Shown here piece by piece: positions 5,293 to 13,235 of a stretch of DNA of 52,787 bases. A program made the translations under genes and the position numbers. The stretch is from assembly GCA_024235695.1 (NCBI GenBank), contig JACKLX010000023.1:1-52787 (forward strand). The letters run 5' to 3'. Under the pieces are notes generated by a model, which saw only the letters and a list, made by a program, of their open reading frames with translations, was not told the origin of the DNA and searched no databases. This DNA comes from Accumulibacter sp. GTDB taxonomy: Bacteria; Pseudomonadota; Gammaproteobacteria; Burkholderiales; Rhodocyclaceae. Position 1 is the first letter of the stretch, and every line of letters starts with the position of its first letter.

Positions 5293-5560
5293 TGGCCTCG
5301 ATGGCGCGACCGGCTGCCAGCACCGGTCGTTCACCCGCCGTCCAGCGAACCGGCAGGGCACTGGAGCAGGCGCCTGCTCGCTCGAGCCGCCAGGGGGTAT
5401 GGGGTGGTCCGTAGATTTCCTGGCAGCGCTGACCCCCGTGCCCCCGTGCTTCCGCTGCTCATCGATGACGAGCGCCATCAGAATCAGCAAGCAGCGGTCG
5501 AAGCACGAAAGAAATCATCAAACGATGCTACCATTGGCACAACTGCAACAAGGAGAAGCC

Positions 5561-5758
5561 ATGCGCACCACTCTCGCACTCGATGATGACCTGCTTATCA
5601 AGGCCCAAGCTCTGACAGGCGTTTCTGAAAAGACGGCGCTTGTGCGAGAAGCCCTGCGCGCCCTGATCCAACGCGAAAGCGCGAAACGACTGGCACTGCT
5701 CGGCGGCTCCGAGCCACAACTGGAAAACGTACCGAGACGCCAGACGGAGCAAGCATGA
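5561..5758 (+). CDS. vapB: VapB-type antitoxin
   Basis: 65 residues from ATG 5561, directly after AGGAG at 5551-5555, which rejects the longer upstream frame. MRTTLALDDDLLIKAQALTG followed by KTALVREALRALIQRE is the ribbon-helix-helix pattern of VapB antitoxins. The C-terminal 20 residues would wrap the toxin. Its stop overlaps the toxin start by four bases (ATGA at 5755-5758), the usual VapBC arrangement. It is expected to bind its own promoter as a complex; no operator was identified. Confidence 0.88.
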   Translation: MRTTLALDDDLLIKAQALTGVSEKTALVREALRALIQRESAKRLALLGGSEPQLENVPRRQTEQA

Positions 5759-6126
5759 TTCTGGTCGATACGTCGATCTGGATTGAACACCTTCGCCGTG
5801 GTGACGAGCGGCTGACACGGCGCCTAGAGCTGGGCCAGGTGCTGGGCCACGCCTACGTCATAGGAGAACTGGCTCTTGGCAACCTCCGGAATCGCCAGCC
5901 AATCATTGGCGCGCTGCAGGACTTGCCGCAGGCAGCCGTCGCTACGGATGAGGAAGTACTGCGTTTTGTCGAGCAGAATGCGCTGTACGGCGCTGGCATC
6001 GGCTACGTTGACGTGCATTTGTTGGCAGCGGTGCGTCTTTCGCCAGGAACCACCTTGTGGACAGGGGATAGAAAGCTCCTCGCCGCTGGCAAGCGCCTGA
6101 ACTTGACAGAAAACCGGCTTCAATGA
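5755..6126 (+). CDS. vapC: VapC-type PIN-domain ribonuclease toxin
   Basis: 123 residues with the PIN nuclease fold. The acidic residues expected to hold Mg2+ are visible: Asp in ILVDTSIWIEHLR, Glu in VIGELALGNL, and the later pair in GIGYVDVHLLAA and WTGDRKL. This is the VapC family, which cleaves tRNA or rRNA when freed from VapB. Overlap with vapB implies coupled expression. The pair lies at the edge of a more AT-rich block, consistent with an addiction element carried with it. Confidence 0.9.
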   Translation: MILVDTSIWIEHLRRGDERLTRRLELGQVLGHAYVIGELALGNLRNRQPIIGALQDLPQAAVATDEEVLRFVEQNALYGAGIGYVDVHLLAAVRLSPGTTLWTGDRKLLAAGKRLNLTENRLQ

Positions 6127-6471: not shown

Positions 6472-8316
6472 CTATCCGCCACTGGCTTGAACATTAATTC
6501 GGTGTGGCCAGGAGTACTGCCACAGTGGTTCCCAGTACGTCTTGAGCAGTGTCGAGACGGCGTCTTTCCCTTCCACCAGGTAATCGAATTCGGAGAGAAA
6601 ACCTGGGTAGAGGTTGTCCGAACCGATAACGTAAGCCTCATCGTCAATAATCATGATCTTGGCGTGGTTTCCCGGAGCAGATGGCACCCTGTCGTAGATA
6701 TAGCCGCTGGCATTAATCACTGCCCGCGCGGCACTGCCGATCACACCTTTCTTGGGTGGCTTTTCGGAAAGCGGCGGCTGTTTAAGGGTGGCGGTGTATC
6801 CTTCCGCACTCAGGCGCGGCCATTGATAGGTACCCCCTTCGACTTGTTGATCGCTCGGAACCTTATCCGTGTAGTAGAGCGGGGCTATCGTCAGTCTCTC
6901 CAGGGCGTTCTTTCGTCTACCATCGGAGTCTGGCAAAGGCCGATCCGTGGCCACCTCGTGGGTCATGTAGTAGTTCATTAGAGCATAGGTCCGGACTGCG
7001 CCCGAGCCGAAGGAATACTGGTCGCCCTCGGCTCCAGCACCGGCATCCAGCGGCGAGACGACCACCTGGACTTCGAGTTCAGGGTTCGCCAGAAGAGCCT
7101 CCAGAAGCCAGTGGCAGACGACATGATCGGACCAGTTTTTCTTCCAGGCGCTGACCAGATCCATCTGTGACATTCTGATGGTCTTCTTTGCGCCCTTGAT
7201 CAACTGTTCTTTCATTAGTTCCGACGCTTGTTGAAAGTCTTTTCCTTCGGGCCCGGTCCAGTATTTGCCGAGGGACAGGACACGCGTCGCCTGTTTGTAC
7301 TCGTCGAAATACTGATAGCTTTCGTACCGTACACGCTCCGGGAAGACGGGCTCGTTGATTTCCACCAGTGTTTGCAGATCCTTCTCGCGGATGCCACTGG
7401 GCTGCGCCGACGGAGCGGGCGCAGGTTTGTCCCTGGTGGTCTGCTGGCCAGCACGATGCATTGCAAGGAGAGCGCGTTGGCGTTGCTTGATCGAGTTCTG
7501 GGCGGCTGTCGCTGCCAGCGGATCTGTCGGCATCCCGCGGTCTTTGTCGCGGTTTTTCCACGACAAGCCGTCAAGCTTGAGCCATTCCTTGGTCAGCAGG
7601 TCGGTACCGCACTGCCACATCTGGTTCAAGTAGAGCTGCGCGCCGTACGCGCCGTCGCCATGTATGACAGCAGAAACGTCGTGCACGGGCGGGTAGCTGC
7701 GGAACAGATCCATGTTGAGGTTGTGTCCGCCGACTAACGCTTCAACGCCATCGACTGCGATGATCTTGGAGTGATTCCATGTCATCTTTGTGTCATCACT
7801 GCCGATAACGCTGCTGCCAAACACCTTGGCTTGAAGTGCGGAAAGGATGCCAGCCTCAAGCCGATAGAAGCGCCCCATCCAGATCTCCGGCAACTGTTCC
7901 CAGTGCGGCGAACGGTCGCGCACAAGTCGAACGAGCGCTGCCTTGAAAGCCGTGTAGTTGGCAGGCTCGCCAACGGGCACGGTGGGCGTTTGTCCGAAGA
8001 GGAAGCGAAACTGGACTGGTTGCCGGCGTCCCATTCTTGTCGACAGGCAGGTATCAATACCGCCTACCACCGCACGTATCCAATCGGGGTCTGGACTATT
8101 CAGCGAAGACAGGTCGCACCGGCACTCGGTTTTTTGAATGATTTCCGTTAGGGCGCGCTCGAAATCGCTCTGGCGTTTGCGTGCCTGCGCCATGATCTCT
8201 CTGCCAAAGGGCAGCCCCCACACGTGTGGCGTATCCAGAATGCGTATGTAGTTCTCGCCACTCAGGCGGCTGAAGCAATTGCCTATTTTCTCAACAACGC
8301 GATCAATTTCACTCAT
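6472..8316 (-). CDS. Phospholipase D family protein with two HKD motifs
   Basis: 614 residues read leftward from ATG 8316, with ACGAGG just upstream; an in-frame start at 8370 is less likely. Both catalytic HxKx4D motifs are intact: H182-K184-D189 in WNHSKIIAVDG, followed by GGHNLN, and H551-K553-D558 in NHAKIMIIDD, followed by GSDN. This is a single-chain, two-lobe PLD as in Streptomyces PLD and Yersinia murine toxin. It is expected to hydrolyse phospholipid head groups. No signal peptide is seen, so delivery would need a dedicated route or host lysis. It lies 75 bases after the fascin-hydrolase gene, likely in one transcript. Base composition is clearly more AT-rich than the flanks. A charged, Pro/Ala-rich linker (about 290-310) separates the lobes. 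Confidence 0.88.
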   Translation of the reverse strand: MSEIDRVVEKIGNCFSRLSGENYIRILDTPHVWGLPFGREIMAQARKRQSDFERALTEIIQKTECRCDLSSLNSPDPDWIRAVVGGIDTCLSTRMGRRQPVQFRFLFGQTPTVPVGEPANYTAFKAALVRLVRDRSPHWEQLPEIWMGRFYRLEAGILSALQAKVFGSSVIGSDDTKMTWNHSKIIAVDGVEALVGGHNLNMDLFRSYPPVHDVSAVIHGDGAYGAQLYLNQMWQCGTDLLTKEWLKLDGLSWKNRDKDRGMPTDPLAATAAQNSIKQRQRALLAMHRAGQQTTRDKPAPAPSAQPSGIREKDLQTLVEINEPVFPERVRYESYQYFDEYKQATRVLSLGKYWTGPEGKDFQQASELMKEQLIKGAKKTIRMSQMDLVSAWKKNWSDHVVCHWLLEALLANPELEVQVVVSPLDAGAGAEGDQYSFGSGAVRTYALMNYYMTHEVATDRPLPDSDGRRKNALERLTIAPLYYTDKVPSDQQVEGGTYQWPRLSAEGYTATLKQPPLSEKPPKKGVIGSAARAVINASGYIYDRVPSAPGNHAKIMIIDDEAYVIGSDNLYPGFLSEFDYLVEGKDAVSTLLKTYWEPLWQYSWPHRINVQASGG

Positions 8317-8391
8317 TGTTGCGCCTCGTAACAATGTGCAGCATGAAAATGGATTCCAGCCTTGATTCAAGTTGCTTTGTGAGCGCCATGA

Positions 8392-10113
8392 CTACAGGAA
8401 TTTCCATTTCACCCAGCCTGCATTCTTGCGTTCATTGGTGACGGGATAGGCCATCGTGTAAGGAGGATCCCCAGCCACGTCGTCCATGAAGTAGGTATTG
8501 AAAGGATTCTTCCCGTAAATCGAGGAAACTCTTCGAACGTAGGGGCGATCTGCGAGAATGCTTGTCCGTGTTGCACCACCGCCCATAATGTCGAAGAGGC
8601 GATGATTGAGATTGATGTCGATTCTCAAATCGAGAGCGCTGGTGTCCACGGCGCCATTCCGAGGAAACTCCACGCCCCACTTGGTCAGGTAAGCTCGAGC
8701 CATTCTGTACACAAGTTTCGGGACCGACTCTACGTCGGCGCTAACATTCGTCGGATCGTACTCGGCGTTTGCTGTGGCATTCCCGGCAACAGTACTATGT
8801 CTACCGCGGCATGCAAACAGTTCGTAGCCCTGCGGTTGCGGGTCCTTGGCAGGTTTCAGCGGATCCTTCTTCTGCGACTCATCTGCCAGGTACTTCCAGC
8901 GGTTCCAGGGCCAAAACCGGTAGTAAGTAAGCTTGATGTCGTTGTTCGTGCCGATCATCCGGCCATTTGGCCTGGGCACCAAGGCCGAAAAGGGCTTGTC
9001 CGCGGGCATGACACATTGATCCCAGGAATAGACACCCACGTAATTCATTACGTTGGGCGGTAACTGCGTCAGAATGCCGTACCACTCGCCAGTACCCGGT
9101 ACCGGATCGATAGCGAAGATATTGACGGGAATCTGACGAATGCTGTCGGAGCCGTAGGCATACAGGAACCATGCCGCCATGATGGCTTCGACGGCACCCC
9201 GGCTATGACCAAAAAAGTTGAACTGCCGAGCGCCGCTGGCTGCGGCGAGGTTTGCACCGTGCAATGCGAGTGCAGGCGCAGACCAACCGTCCAACTGTGT
9301 CGCCTTCGAGAGTTGATCACCACCCGAATAGCTCTTGATGTAACTCAATAGCGTCTTGTCGGCCTTGAGGGGAGCTTTGAAGACGAGTGGCTCGCTATCG
9401 TGTCGCGGAATACTCCAGTCGTTCTCCCCAACACCCCGTACAGTTACGCTGGGACGAGTAGCGCGAAGATCGCCGGAAATCTCTTTGTGTAAGCGAACGA
9501 GGATGTATCCGGTCTGCTCGCAATAAATCCTCTTGTCGCTTTCCGGACGACTAACCTCGCCCTCGTCACGCGTGCAAGCGGTACCGGCAAAGAAGACAGT
9601 GAATGCAACCGACGGCGCCGCTGATTGAATATGGGCTGCGCGCCTGTTTTGCATGCGGGCACTGGGCCGCGCCGGCGACTCCACCTTGTCTTTTTCAAGA
9701 GGGACAAGCTCAAACGTCTCCGAGTCACCTGCTGATTTGCTGGTAGCCCGCAGGGGAGCCGCCCCTGACTTCGCGTTGCACACATAGCTGCCGTTGGTGG
9801 CGATGAGTGCGACATGTTTCTCATCGAGCGGGACAATGCGGAATATCTCGCCTTTCCCCATCTTGTTACTATTGGCGGCAAGCTGGTTATTCTCGTCCTT
9901 GTCGCTGCCAACGAACTTTCCATTGGCTGCTCTAAATGCCACTTGCCACTCACCCTGATGTAGCATTTCGAAAGTTTCGCCCTGACCGATGCTACTCCGA
10001 GCTGCCTGCAGCGGAGCGTTTCCACTACTGCCAACTGACACATATTGTCCATTATTGGCTTTCAAAGCGACACGGATAAATGAATCGGCATTTTCCTGTT
10101 TCGTTTGTTTCAT
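8392..10113 (-). CDS. Fascin-like beta-trefoil fused to a GHSRG alpha/beta-hydrolase domain
   Basis: 573 residues from ATG 10113, which follows GAGAAAG; a TTG at 10128 is the alternative. Residues about 12-138 are three similar units, each built as VAL/F-x-A-x-NG-x-Y/F-V ... L-x-A ... G-x-x-E-x-F, the beta-trefoil of fascin-like domains. From about 170 a hydrolase-like domain begins (FFAGTACTRDEGE). It has a nucleophile elbow GHSRGA (Ser304), a following acidic turn FAIDPVPG (Asp336) and a candidate His439 in CRGRHSTVAG. This triad layout resembles DUF2235/Tle1-like phospholipase effectors and DUF5621. No signal peptide. First gene of a pair with a phospholipase D. AT-rich relative to neighbours. 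Family names are recalled; the activity is inferred. Confidence 0.8.
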   Translation of the reverse strand: MKQTKQENADSFIRVALKANNGQYVSVGSSGNAPLQAARSSIGQGETFEMLHQGEWQVAFRAANGKFVGSDKDENNQLAANSNKMGKGEIFRIVPLDEKHVALIATNGSYVCNAKSGAAPLRATSKSAGDSETFELVPLEKDKVESPARPSARMQNRRAAHIQSAAPSVAFTVFFAGTACTRDEGEVSRPESDKRIYCEQTGYILVRLHKEISGDLRATRPSVTVRGVGENDWSIPRHDSEPLVFKAPLKADKTLLSYIKSYSGGDQLSKATQLDGWSAPALALHGANLAAASGARQFNFFGHSRGAVEAIMAAWFLYAYGSDSIRQIPVNIFAIDPVPGTGEWYGILTQLPPNVMNYVGVYSWDQCVMPADKPFSALVPRPNGRMIGTNNDIKLTYYRFWPWNRWKYLADESQKKDPLKPAKDPQPQGYELFACRGRHSTVAGNATANAEYDPTNVSADVESVPKLVYRMARAYLTKWGVEFPRNGAVDTSALDLRIDINLNHRLFDIMGGGATRTSILADRPYVRRVSSIYGKNPFNTYFMDDVAGDPPYTMAYPVTNERKNAGWVKWKFL

Positions 10114-10225: not shown

Positions 10226-11701
10226 TCACAGCGTCTTCAGATACTCGACCAACGCCTCCTTGTCGGCTGCCGACAATGCGGTCCCGAATTCGTGCCCCTG
10301 GTTACTGCCACCCCGGCTGCCGGTATCGAGTTTCGTCCCGACGCGCTGCGCCGCTGGCGTATCGGTGACAAAACCGACCTTGGTCTGGTCATAGACGTCG
10401 TAGCCGCGCCAGAACACGGTCGGTCGCTGGGCGGCCGGTTCGAGCAGGTCGCGCAGGGTCGGCACCGAGCCGTTGTGCAGGTACGGGGCTTTCAGCCAGA
10501 TGCCGTCGAGGAAGGGCACGACATAGCCGATCAGGTCTTCCTCGACCAGGCCGCGTCGCTCCAGACCCATCTCCTTGACGACCTGGTTGGCCTTGATCGC
10601 CGCACCCTTGTTCCAGGAATCGAGGCGGCCGCGGTCGGTGCCGACGTCGGCCAGCGCGAGCGGCCGACCGGTCAGCTCGCTGGCGTGGCAGCTGGCACAA
10701 TTGGCGTCGAACAGCACCTTGCCGGCGTCCGCCCTGGCGGCGTCGACGGCGAAGGGGTATTTCGGCGGCGGCAGTTCGGAGAGATAGCTGTGCAGCCACT
10801 GCACCTGCGCGACGAAGTCGTCCTTGCTGGCCGGTGCGGCACCGAGCAGGCCAAGGGCCGAGTCCATGATCACCGAGTAGGCGTCATTGCTGTCGCCGGC
10901 GTAGTTCATGCGGTGCCCCTTGTCCCAGACGTACTTCTTGAGGTTCCACACCGACGGCATGTCGGTGGGACCGAAGGTGTCGTCCATCGGCGCACGGATC
11001 ATGAAGTACTTGGTGAGATTCATCGCGTCGTCGCGACCACGGCCCCAGTCGGGGAAGTCGGGACGGTAGATCCAGGCAAACTGTTGCTCGCGTTCGAGCA
11101 GCCGCTTCCTGGTGATCGGGATGACGAAGAAGCGGTAGAGCATCTGGTCGATGAGATCGAGCTCGGTGACGCGATTGATCTCGGCCATCAGGATGTCGGA
11201 GTTGAAGCGAGGATCCTTGGCGCAATCGATCAGGTAGCGGAAGAAGGCCTCGACGTTGGTGGTGTTCGCGGGTCCGCCGACGACGAAGATCGGGTTGGAG
11301 TCGGGCGATTCGCGGTAGCTGCTGGTGTGACAGACGGCGCAATTGTTGGCCACCCGCGGAAAGCCGATGGTCTTCTTGGTGAAACCCGCCGGCAGCTCGT
11401 GCCCCTGCTCCCAGGGCACGCCCAGCGCGGCATAGCCGCCGGGAAGCACCTTGCCGTCCTGCGTCAGTTTCTCGGGAAAGACGCGCGGCAGCACGTAGAA
11501 GATCCAGTAGGGAATGCCGGCGTCGTGCTCGGCGCCGATCGAGCCGTACTTGAAGCGGGTCTCGAAGTCGGCGGTGACCCACGCCGGCTGCGGCTGTTCG
11601 CGGAAACCGCGGTCCCAGGCGATCCACCCGCCGACGACCGCGACGACGATGATCAGCACGCCGATGGCGCGAAACCAGTTCCTGCAGGAGCGCATGCTCA
11701 T
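10226..11701 (-). CDS. Membrane-anchored di-haem cytochrome c, RoxA/CCP-like
   Basis: 491 residues from ATG 11701. An uncleaved N-terminal anchor (about 11-29) places the rest in the periplasm. Two haem c sites are present: CAVCH at 121-125 and CASCH at 335-339. The C-terminal half carries APYLHNGSVPTLRDLLEPA and YDVYDQTKVGFV, shared with the next gene upstream and typical of the RoxA / di-haem peroxidase superfamily. It is the last gene of a five-gene leftward cluster, 10 bases from its paralogue. It is likely an electron carrier or oxygenase/peroxidase; the substrate is unknown. Confidence 0.85.
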   Translation of the reverse strand: MSMRSCRNWFRAIGVLIIVVAVVGGWIAWDRGFREQPQPAWVTADFETRFKYGSIGAEHDAGIPYWIFYVLPRVFPEKLTQDGKVLPGGYAALGVPWEQGHELPAGFTKKTIGFPRVANNCAVCHTSSYRESPDSNPIFVVGGPANTTNVEAFFRYLIDCAKDPRFNSDILMAEINRVTELDLIDQMLYRFFVIPITRKRLLEREQQFAWIYRPDFPDWGRGRDDAMNLTKYFMIRAPMDDTFGPTDMPSVWNLKKYVWDKGHRMNYAGDSNDAYSVIMDSALGLLGAAPASKDDFVAQVQWLHSYLSELPPPKYPFAVDAARADAGKVLFDANCASCHASELTGRPLALADVGTDRGRLDSWNKGAAIKANQVVKEMGLERRGLVEEDLIGYVVPFLDGIWLKAPYLHNGSVPTLRDLLEPAAQRPTVFWRGYDVYDQTKVGFVTDTPAAQRVGTKLDTGSRGGSNQGHEFGTALSAADKEALVEYLKTL

Positions 11702-11711
11702 CGTGGGATCC

Positions 11712-13235
11712 TCAGAAAGTCTTCAGGAACTCGACCAGCGCGGTCTTTTCGGCCGGACTCAGTTCGGTGCCATAGGCCTTGCCCTCGTGGCCGCCGTTGC
11801 CGTTGCCGGGAACGGCGGTGTCGAGCAGGAAGAAGGACTTGCCGCTGACCTCGGCCTGATCGGACACGAAACCGACCTTGACCGGGTCATAGACGTCGTT
11901 GCCGCGATAAAAGGTTTTCGGCCGCGCCGTCGCCGGTTCGAGCAGGTCGCGCAGGCTGGGCACCGAACCATTGTGCAGGTAGGGCGCGCGCAACCAGAGA
12001 CCGTCCAGCGGCATGTTGGCGTAGCCGTAGGTCTTGCGGAAGTGCGTGAAACGCCAGGGATAGCCGGCGTAGAGCGTCGCCTGGTTCACCGCCAGGGTAT
12101 AGGTATAGGAATCGAGCCGTCGCCGGTCGGTGCCGATCTCGGCCAGCGGCGTCACCTGGCCGACCAACTCACCGCCGAAATCGCTGCCGCTGGCGCCGTG
12201 GCAGGCGGCGCAATACGCCTTGTAGATCGGCGCGCCGCTCGCCGCCAGCGCCGGGTCGATCGGGAAGAACTGGCTGAATGCCGGCGGCGTCACGTCGAGG
12301 ATCCAGTCCTCGACCCGACGAATGCGCGCCAGATCGATGGTCGGCGGCGTCGTCCCGGTACCGAAAGCGGCGCTCTTGTTGCGCTCCTCGACGGTGGTGT
12401 TGTTGCCGTCCCAGTGCAGTTGCATTTCATGCGGTTGCTTGCGCTGCCGTTGTCGCCACAGCGAGGGAAAGTCGGCCGGCGCGTCGAACTCGGCTGGGTC
12501 GAGATGGGCCATCGGGAAGTTGAAGATGACTTTCGCCGAGTTGAAGGTGTCGACACGCCCGGGGCCCCACTGGTGCTGCTTGAAGACCCAGTCGAAGCGC
12601 CCGGCGAGTGCCAGCACGCGGTCGCGCATGATCGCGATGGCGACCGGATAGACGACGTAACGATCGAGCAGGTCGAGTTGCCCGCCCTGGCGCTCGATCT
12701 CGGGCAGGATGAATTCCTTCGCGAACTTCGGGTCGGCGGCGCAGCGGAAGAAGAACTCCTCGAAACCCTTCATGTTGAACGTCGCGGCGGGCATGCCGAG
12801 GACGATCGTCGGCGGCTGGTCGGCGGCGGTGCGCACCGTACTCGTGTGGCAGACGGCGCAGTTGACGAACACCCGGTCGATGCCCTGGTAACGACGACGC
12901 GAGGTACCGACGGGAACATCCCGGTCGCTGCCGTCGGCGTTCTTCTCGAAAACCATGCCGAGCGATTGGTAGCCCTTGCCGGGCAGATACTGCGGGCAGA
13001 CCTGCGGCAACGCCCGCCAGATCCAGTAGGGGAAACCCATCTCGTGCTCGCCGCCGGTAGAACCGTACTTGAAGTGCTCGGCCGGGCTGTCGTAGTCCAC
13101 CGCGACGTCGCCAGCGAAGCGTTGCACCAGCCAGATCAGCACCATCGCCGGCAGCACGACGGTGACCACGAAGAGAATCACGAAGCGCCGTTTCCAGGGG
13201 CTTTTCACTGCCGGATTCTGCTGCTGCTCGTTCAT
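11712..13235 (-). CDS. Membrane-anchored di-haem cytochrome c, paralogue of the following gene
   Basis: 507 residues from ATG 13235 with GGGAG upstream. N-terminal membrane anchor at about 17-37. Haem sites: CAVCH at 126-130 and CAACH at 342-346. It shares with the 10226-11701 product the early FKYGSTGGEHEMGFPYWIW segment, the first haem context NCAVCHTS-x-x-R, the LRAPYLHNGSVPSLRDLLEP block and the C-terminal ELSPAEKTALVEFLKTF, so the two arose by duplication. Periplasmic, RoxA/CCP-like superfamily by motif memory. No catalytic assignment is possible from sequence alone. Confidence 0.85.
   Translation of the reverse strand: MNEQQQNPAVKSPWKRRFVILFVVTVVLPAMVLIWLVQRFAGDVAVDYDSPAEHFKYGSTGGEHEMGFPYWIWRALPQVCPQYLPGKGYQSLGMVFEKNADGSDRDVPVGTSRRRYQGIDRVFVNCAVCHTSTVRTAADQPPTIVLGMPAATFNMKGFEEFFFRCAADPKFAKEFILPEIERQGGQLDLLDRYVVYPVAIAIMRDRVLALAGRFDWVFKQHQWGPGRVDTFNSAKVIFNFPMAHLDPAEFDAPADFPSLWRQRQRKQPHEMQLHWDGNNTTVEERNKSAAFGTGTTPPTIDLARIRRVEDWILDVTPPAFSQFFPIDPALAASGAPIYKAYCAACHGASGSDFGGELVGQVTPLAEIGTDRRRLDSYTYTLAVNQATLYAGYPWRFTHFRKTYGYANMPLDGLWLRAPYLHNGSVPSLRDLLEPATARPKTFYRGNDVYDPVKVGFVSDQAEVSGKSFFLLDTAVPGNGNGGHEGKAYGTELSPAEKTALVEFLKTF

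Follow-up and report, generated by a model that had tools for sequence, protein, structure and literature searches.

A lipase effector is typically portrayed as one gene that comes with an immunity partner and relies on a single secretion system, and Streptomyces-type phospholipases D (PLDs) are secreted with signal peptides. The locus described here, in a 52,787-nucleotide stretch from Accumulibacter sp. (the window; contig JACKLX010000023.1 of assembly GCA_024235695.1, a 3.83 Mb genome, G000, 83.66% complete), shows a contrasting arrangement: two putative lipid-cleaving enzymes, a serine hydrolase and a two-HKD PLD, form a fixed pair present in several phyla; their binding domain varies, and no immunity or secretion gene was found to be conserved alongside them. 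Fixed pairing combined with cross-phylum exchange of binding domains has no description in the literature searched, outside which many subscription papers lie. We propose that the pair is probably a horizontally mobile, lectin-targeted lipase effector module, in which a serine hydrolase of Tle/Lem25 fold and the PLD attack one membrane.

The hydrolase and PLD genes form a conserved pair

The pair and its main elements are as follows.
8392-10113, minus strand: serine hydrolase gene (573 aa, ATG at 10113), from its open reading frame, Pfam, predicted models and fold searches
9691-10080, minus strand: beta-trefoil domain of the hydrolase, residues ~12-141
9196-9210, minus strand: GHSRG nucleophile elbow, residues 302-306, with Ser304
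8317-8391, minus strand: intergenic gap of 75 bases (15-91 bases in homologous pairs)
6472-8316, minus strand: two-HKD PLD gene (614 aa, ATG at 8316), from its open reading frame and a phmmer search of the PDB

A previous interpretation made from the DNA letters alone (the sequence-only reading) had described two co-directional genes 75 bases apart in an AT-rich block, and the open reading frames bear this out, both lying on the minus strand with a GC content of 0.556 versus 0.647 for the remaining window, rRNA stretch excluded. Scanning genome contigs with the PLD yielded 18 loci at 61-81% identity, 17 of which carry a hydrolase homologue directly upstream; the other, L020, begins at a contig end that cuts the PLD. 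A further pair was found through the hydrolase in G205, a genome of the window's order. Gene order and direction are the same, with gaps of 15-91 bases, in all 19 readable loci (the 17, G205 and the window), the opposite of the separate occurrence that would speak against a working two-enzyme unit. The 18 loci, being seeded with the PLD, are its close relatives, and evidence in the reverse direction, from hydrolase to PLD, comes from G205 and the window.

The hydrolase core is present in 2/399 genomes of the window's order; L003 and L004, two of the four matches of that search, match through the fascin-like domain alone. Orphans were sought with the hydrolase profile (E up to 1e-8) in three sets of 345, 145 and 246 genomes, and each time the matches listed came from the seed genome alone. 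Distance matrices of the hydrolase and PLD cores correlate with a Spearman coefficient of 0.556 over 17 pairs, relatedness uncontrolled, and 0/2000 permutations reached this value. The PLD alignment (A2) omits L019 and L020, which are cut by contig ends, L021, which is split across frames, and L002 and L023, the PLD of the last being used solely in trees and distances; alignments A3 and A4 omit L002 and L012, and A4 also omits L019. The analysis supports the hydrolase and PLD as a real two-gene unit, beyond chance.

Catalytic cores of the two enzymes

The hydrolase is composed of an N-terminal beta-trefoil resembling CBM92, fascin and FRG1 (residues ~12-141) and an alpha/beta-hydrolase domain of Tle/Lem25 type (~164-573). 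Its G-H-S-R-G motif, invariant in all 19 aligned hydrolases, provides Ser304, for which Asp336 and His439 are the candidate partners. In the predicted model, the motif sits between strand 297-303 and helix 305-320, and Ser304, Asp336 and His439 lie at or near the ends of strands 297-303, 330-335 and 430-436. The catalytic candidates picked out in the sequence-only reading are therefore present, and the model puts all three at or near canonical strand ends. Models and alignment together point to an alpha/beta-hydrolase fold with a GxSxG nucleophile and Asp/His at strand ends. Fold searches of the predicted models return exported effectors, Tle1/TleB-like and Lem25, as the closest folds to the core, supporting a predicted fold of effector (Tle/Lem25) type. 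The Tle sequence family, which we take to be DUF2235, gave no Pfam or NCBIfam match to the window hydrolase at E up to 1. Chlorophyllase was rejected as the family of the core, the Pfam match being weak and confined to 2/19 members (best E 0.0024).

The PLD retains H182-K184-D189 and H551-K553-D558, so the two intact HKD sets proposed from the sequence are confirmed, and both motifs are present in 16/16 aligned PLDs. The closest solved sequences are PDB 7js7 (E 2e-19, phmmer against the PDB, both HKD halves aligning), 7jrb and 1v0r, presumably all Streptomyces-type PLDs; the sequence-only reading had pointed to Yersinia murine toxin. With two HxKxxxxD motifs per chain and matches to known PLDs in both halves, the protein is, judged by sequence, a putative member of the two-HKD PLD superfamily; the window copy bears no accessory domain. 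The PLD nearest to it, on a Myxococcota metagenome contig (L021:8001-9770), is split into three overlapping pieces in different frames, through sequencing error or decay. The C-terminal tail of a Flavobacteriales PLD (L009:9840-10550) contains, by eye, about four similar repeats and has no Pfam match.

Lectin-type domains are exchanged among carriers

The window trefoil matches Pfam FRG1 (9e-15) and Fascin (7.8e-10); in the fold search with the model, fascin and CBM92 are equal in Z, and the modelled domain shows the predicted beta-trefoil fold of CBM92. The available text of PMC11039641 describes CBM92 on carbohydrate-active enzymes of soil and marine bacteria. Among the trefoil homologues, the WExF Trp is retained at 3/3 sites in L009, at 1/3 in L021 and at 0/3 in the other five.

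The domain type is swapped among carriers, which present a CBM92 trefoil, a jacalin, a LamG or a tectonin or kelch propeller, and the accessory domain sits on either subunit and, on the PLD, at either end. Jacalin is matched by Pfam in L011, L016 and L017, and falls below the E 0.001 cut-off in L012 and L013, though their C-termini are 86-93% identical to that of L011. The hydrolase had been called fascin-fused: the fused trefoil stands, and it fits CBM92-type modules equally well and is one of several exchangeable domains. An actin-binding reading of the fascin domain stands beside glycan binding; we prefer the latter, given that most of the remaining attached domains resemble lectins and that L009 keeps the CBM92 motifs. 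L003:514-1923 (minus strand), in a genome of the window's family, encodes a separate protein of 470 aa that contains three DUF7910 stretches and matches FRG1 weakly.

Spread across phyla

Nine records without a metagenome-assembled genome (MAG) label in their titles (Duganella, Phytobacter, Thalassomonas, three Catenulispora, Burkholderia, Marinomonas and Sphingobacterium) span three phyla, so bin contamination cannot account for the whole spread; many relatives are environmental by record title. The hydrolase tree places the window with a Myxococcota metagenome contig (99/97), not with G205 of its own order, and unites the eight trefoil-bearing hydrolases of Bacteroidota, Pseudomonadota and Myxococcota in one clade (99/98). 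The PLD tree has a weaker base and does not fully repeat this pattern. Phage or plasmid cargo was rejected, neither protein profile finding a relative in viral contigs; the PLD, the one protein of the two searched in phage and plasmid records, gave no match in the former and three distant matches in the latter, none covering 80% of the query.

Neighbouring genes

Genes around 20 loci, including the first 20 kb of the window, were called with a simple caller of our own (at least 45 aa) and clustered by blastp (E 1e-4). No third gene widely common to the loci, whether immunity, secretion or toxin-antitoxin, emerged from this sequence clustering, which small or fast-changing genes may escape; the immunity gene reported as missing in the sequence-only reading accordingly has no conserved counterpart here. 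L005, L009 and L015 have one cluster in common, represented in L015 by an AraC-type regulator, L007 and L018 have another, and synteny is seen within Catenulispora (L011-L013) and between L006 and L018. The latter two loci, from Duganella/Pseudoduganella (L006:2085-14534, L018:2074-14523), share an nSTAND1 protein with a transcriptional-regulator domain and two small genes upstream of the pair and, on its downstream side, an RHS-repeat protein of ~1550 aa, with every gene pointing the same way.

The pair in the window is flanked by VapC on one side and a RoxA-like cytochrome on the other (Pfam), the former belonging to the following feature.
5558-6126, plus strand: VapB/VapC (PIN) pair (Pfam), a convergent neighbour judged to be outside the unit

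VapB (E 1.4e-17) and the PIN toxin (E 3.1e-05) both face the hydrolase and PLD genes. The VapBC neighbour noted from the sequence is thus present, and it was rejected as a partner since it has no counterpart at the other loci. On the far side (10226-13235, minus strand) stand two RoxA-like cytochrome c proteins side by side and a 715-aa open reading frame without a Pfam match. From the first 24 kb of the window, 15 proteins besides the pair were scanned (VapBC, a transglycosylase, the cytochrome proteins and 10 others), and none matched VgrG, PAAR, Hcp or any other secretion-system or toxin-carrier domain.

Export and delivery

A crude hydropathy check finds no signal peptide in 19 hydrolases or 16 PLDs, in agreement with the sequence-only reading. 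The extracellular contractile injection system (eCIS) marker Pvc16_N is present in 11/20 carrier genomes, compared with 50/398 genomes of the window's order, 29/197 of the Catenulispora class and 37/198 of the Sphingobacterium phylum, giving a stratified odds ratio of 6.7 with relatedness and genome size uncontrolled. In these counts the Catenulispora isolates are entered separately, the L020 carrier shows the PLD alone and the control sets include some carriers. By stratum, the marker occurs in 6/9 Pseudomonadota/Myxococcota, 3/5 actinomycete and 2/6 Bacteroidota carriers. G000 itself encodes an eCIS-like cluster on contig C2 (L030:712 to L031:14635) with Pvc16_N, sheath, tube, CIS_tube, hub, Baseplate_J and AAA proteins and, near its end, two eCIS_core proteins, one with an OmpA domain.

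VipB, a marker of the type VI secretion system (T6SS), is found in 7/20 carriers and was not detected in G000 (at the completeness given above), G205 or the three Catenulispora isolate genomes; VipB may miss the Bacteroidota-type T6SS. A delivery system dedicated to the pair was rejected, the marker excess being uncontrolled for relatedness and genome size and not significant in Bacteroidota. Delivery by a contractile machine is plausible for many carriers.

Proposed mechanism and alternatives

In the proposed module, hydrolase and PLD would be co-produced in the cytoplasm without signal peptides and would leave by a contractile injection system or by lysis. Their exchangeable lectin-like domains would anchor both to a glycan-bearing target, where the PLD may strip lipid head groups and the hydrolase acyl chains, so that one membrane would be cut at two kinds of bond. 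The data beneath this proposal are the conserved pairing, intact catalytic motifs, predicted effector fold and domain exchange, together with a gene tree that crosses phyla and the lack of a third gene conserved by sequence. From these we infer that the substrates are lipids, that the enzymes act together, by which route they are delivered, and that the target is not bacterial (fungal, oomycete, protist or animal), the last because a conserved immunity gene is absent and the attached domains are lectin-type. Should this hold, the module would amount to a modular re-aiming of a membrane toxin by evolution. The effector or toxin pair of the sequence-only reading thus holds as to the unit, its motifs and its fold, and changes as to fascin and VapBC.

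Several observations weigh against the module. The window hydrolase core is named by no Pfam or NCBIfam model; the WExF-type sites of its trefoil read GETF, GEIF and SETF (Trp 0/3); and 6/19 pairs have no recognised accessory domain. The founding carrageenan-binding CBM92 also lacks WExF, as the available text of PMC11039641 describes it, so CBM92 in the wide sense stays possible for the window trefoil. A fast-changing immunity gene could be missed by sequence comparison. The eCIS excess does not reach significance when Bacteroidota are taken by themselves (2/6 versus 37/198, p 0.32); pair and eCIS lie apart in G000 (contigs C23 and C2) and in G205 (3,885 kb and 114 kb of a 3.96 Mb contig); and 9/20 carriers have no eCIS marker, 13/20 no VipB and 6/20 neither, these six including Sphingobacterium, which is not a MAG.

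An abortive-infection pair, in which a stress or phage signal would set the lipases on the producer's own membrane, is unlikely. The lack of signal peptides by hydropathy and of a conserved immunity gene, the patchy cross-phylum spread, the VapBC neighbour and the nSTAND1 protein upstream in L006 and L018 would suit such a defence; but PADLOC is silent for the hydrolase and gives only weak HKD-motif matches of the PLD to DrmC and MkoB (best E 0.00039), no model matching either protein over most of its length. The lectin-type domains would also suit outside glycans more than inside signals, only generic genes recur beside the pair across unrelated loci, and the nearest folds are exported effectors. 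Classical antibacterial T6SS lipase effectors (Tle), with immunity genes elsewhere in the genome or too divergent, are likewise improbable: the Tle1/TleB-like fold, VipB in 7/20 carriers and a Tle group that we take to include both serine hydrolases and PLDs speak for them, against which stands the failure to find VipB in G000, G205 and the three Catenulispora isolates, an adjacent third gene conserved by sequence, or VgrG, PAAR or Hcp among the window proteins scanned.

Scavenging, by which lysis-released enzymes would bind polysaccharide or debris through their CBM or lectin domains and digest lipid as food, we consider quite improbable. It accords with record titles that mark many relatives as environmental and with the description of CBM92 domains on carbohydrate-active enzymes from soil-dwelling and marine bacteria (PMC11039641), but signal peptides are absent by hydropathy from all 19 hydrolases and 16 PLDs, which is odd for a nutrient enzyme, especially in actinomycetes, and the fold is effector-like. 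Ordinary cytoplasmic lipid metabolism is very improbable indeed; it would fit proteins that are soluble and in which hydropathy shows no signal peptide, but the hydrolase is rare and patchy (2/399 order genomes; the seed genome alone among the matches in the sets of 345, 145 and 246) and lectin-type domains are attached.

Within the effector reading, a more specific form is possible, if doubtful: a portable binary membrane toxin, in which a constant enzyme pair crosses phyla while a glycan-reading aiming part is exchanged. Damage would then depend on the two enzymes meeting on one foreign membrane, which would account for the pair spreading without an immunity gene. The carriers of the pair include Gram-positive actinomycetes that gave no match to the T6SS marker VipB.

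Comparison with known systems

The T6SS effectors Tle1, TleB and Tle4 (PDB 6sjl, 9j3f and 4o5p, the last being presumably Tle4) are among the closest known systems, from which the window core is set apart by having no Pfam match, and the pair by its fixed PLD partner, lectin-type domains, lack of a conserved immunity gene and the fact that VipB was not detected in G000. For the Legionella Dot/Icm effector Lpg2422/Lem25, we know of no PLD partner or trefoil. Its hydrolase activity is unproven according to its own paper (PDB 4m0m), and the present pair would supply a functional context for this uncharacterised fold. The window PLD aligns with 7js7, 7jrb and 1v0r over both HKD halves (at the E value given above), but differs from this type in that hydropathy shows no signal peptide and that a hydrolase gene is its conserved companion.

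The eCIS effectors Mif1 and EAT17 (PMC11796346, PMC11297309), in the portions of those articles available, are lipases or phospholipase-like proteins loaded into contractile injection systems, a description to which the pair would conform. The likeness extends to the setting, G000 having an eCIS-like cluster of its own, but the pair is not beside that cluster. Set beside CBM92 and bacterial fascin-like domains (PDB 7zoh), the trefoil of the window differs at the three Trp positions, which are occupied by Gly, Gly and Ser, and its place on a putative lipase would give a context for bacterial fascin-like domains outside carbohydrate-active enzymes.

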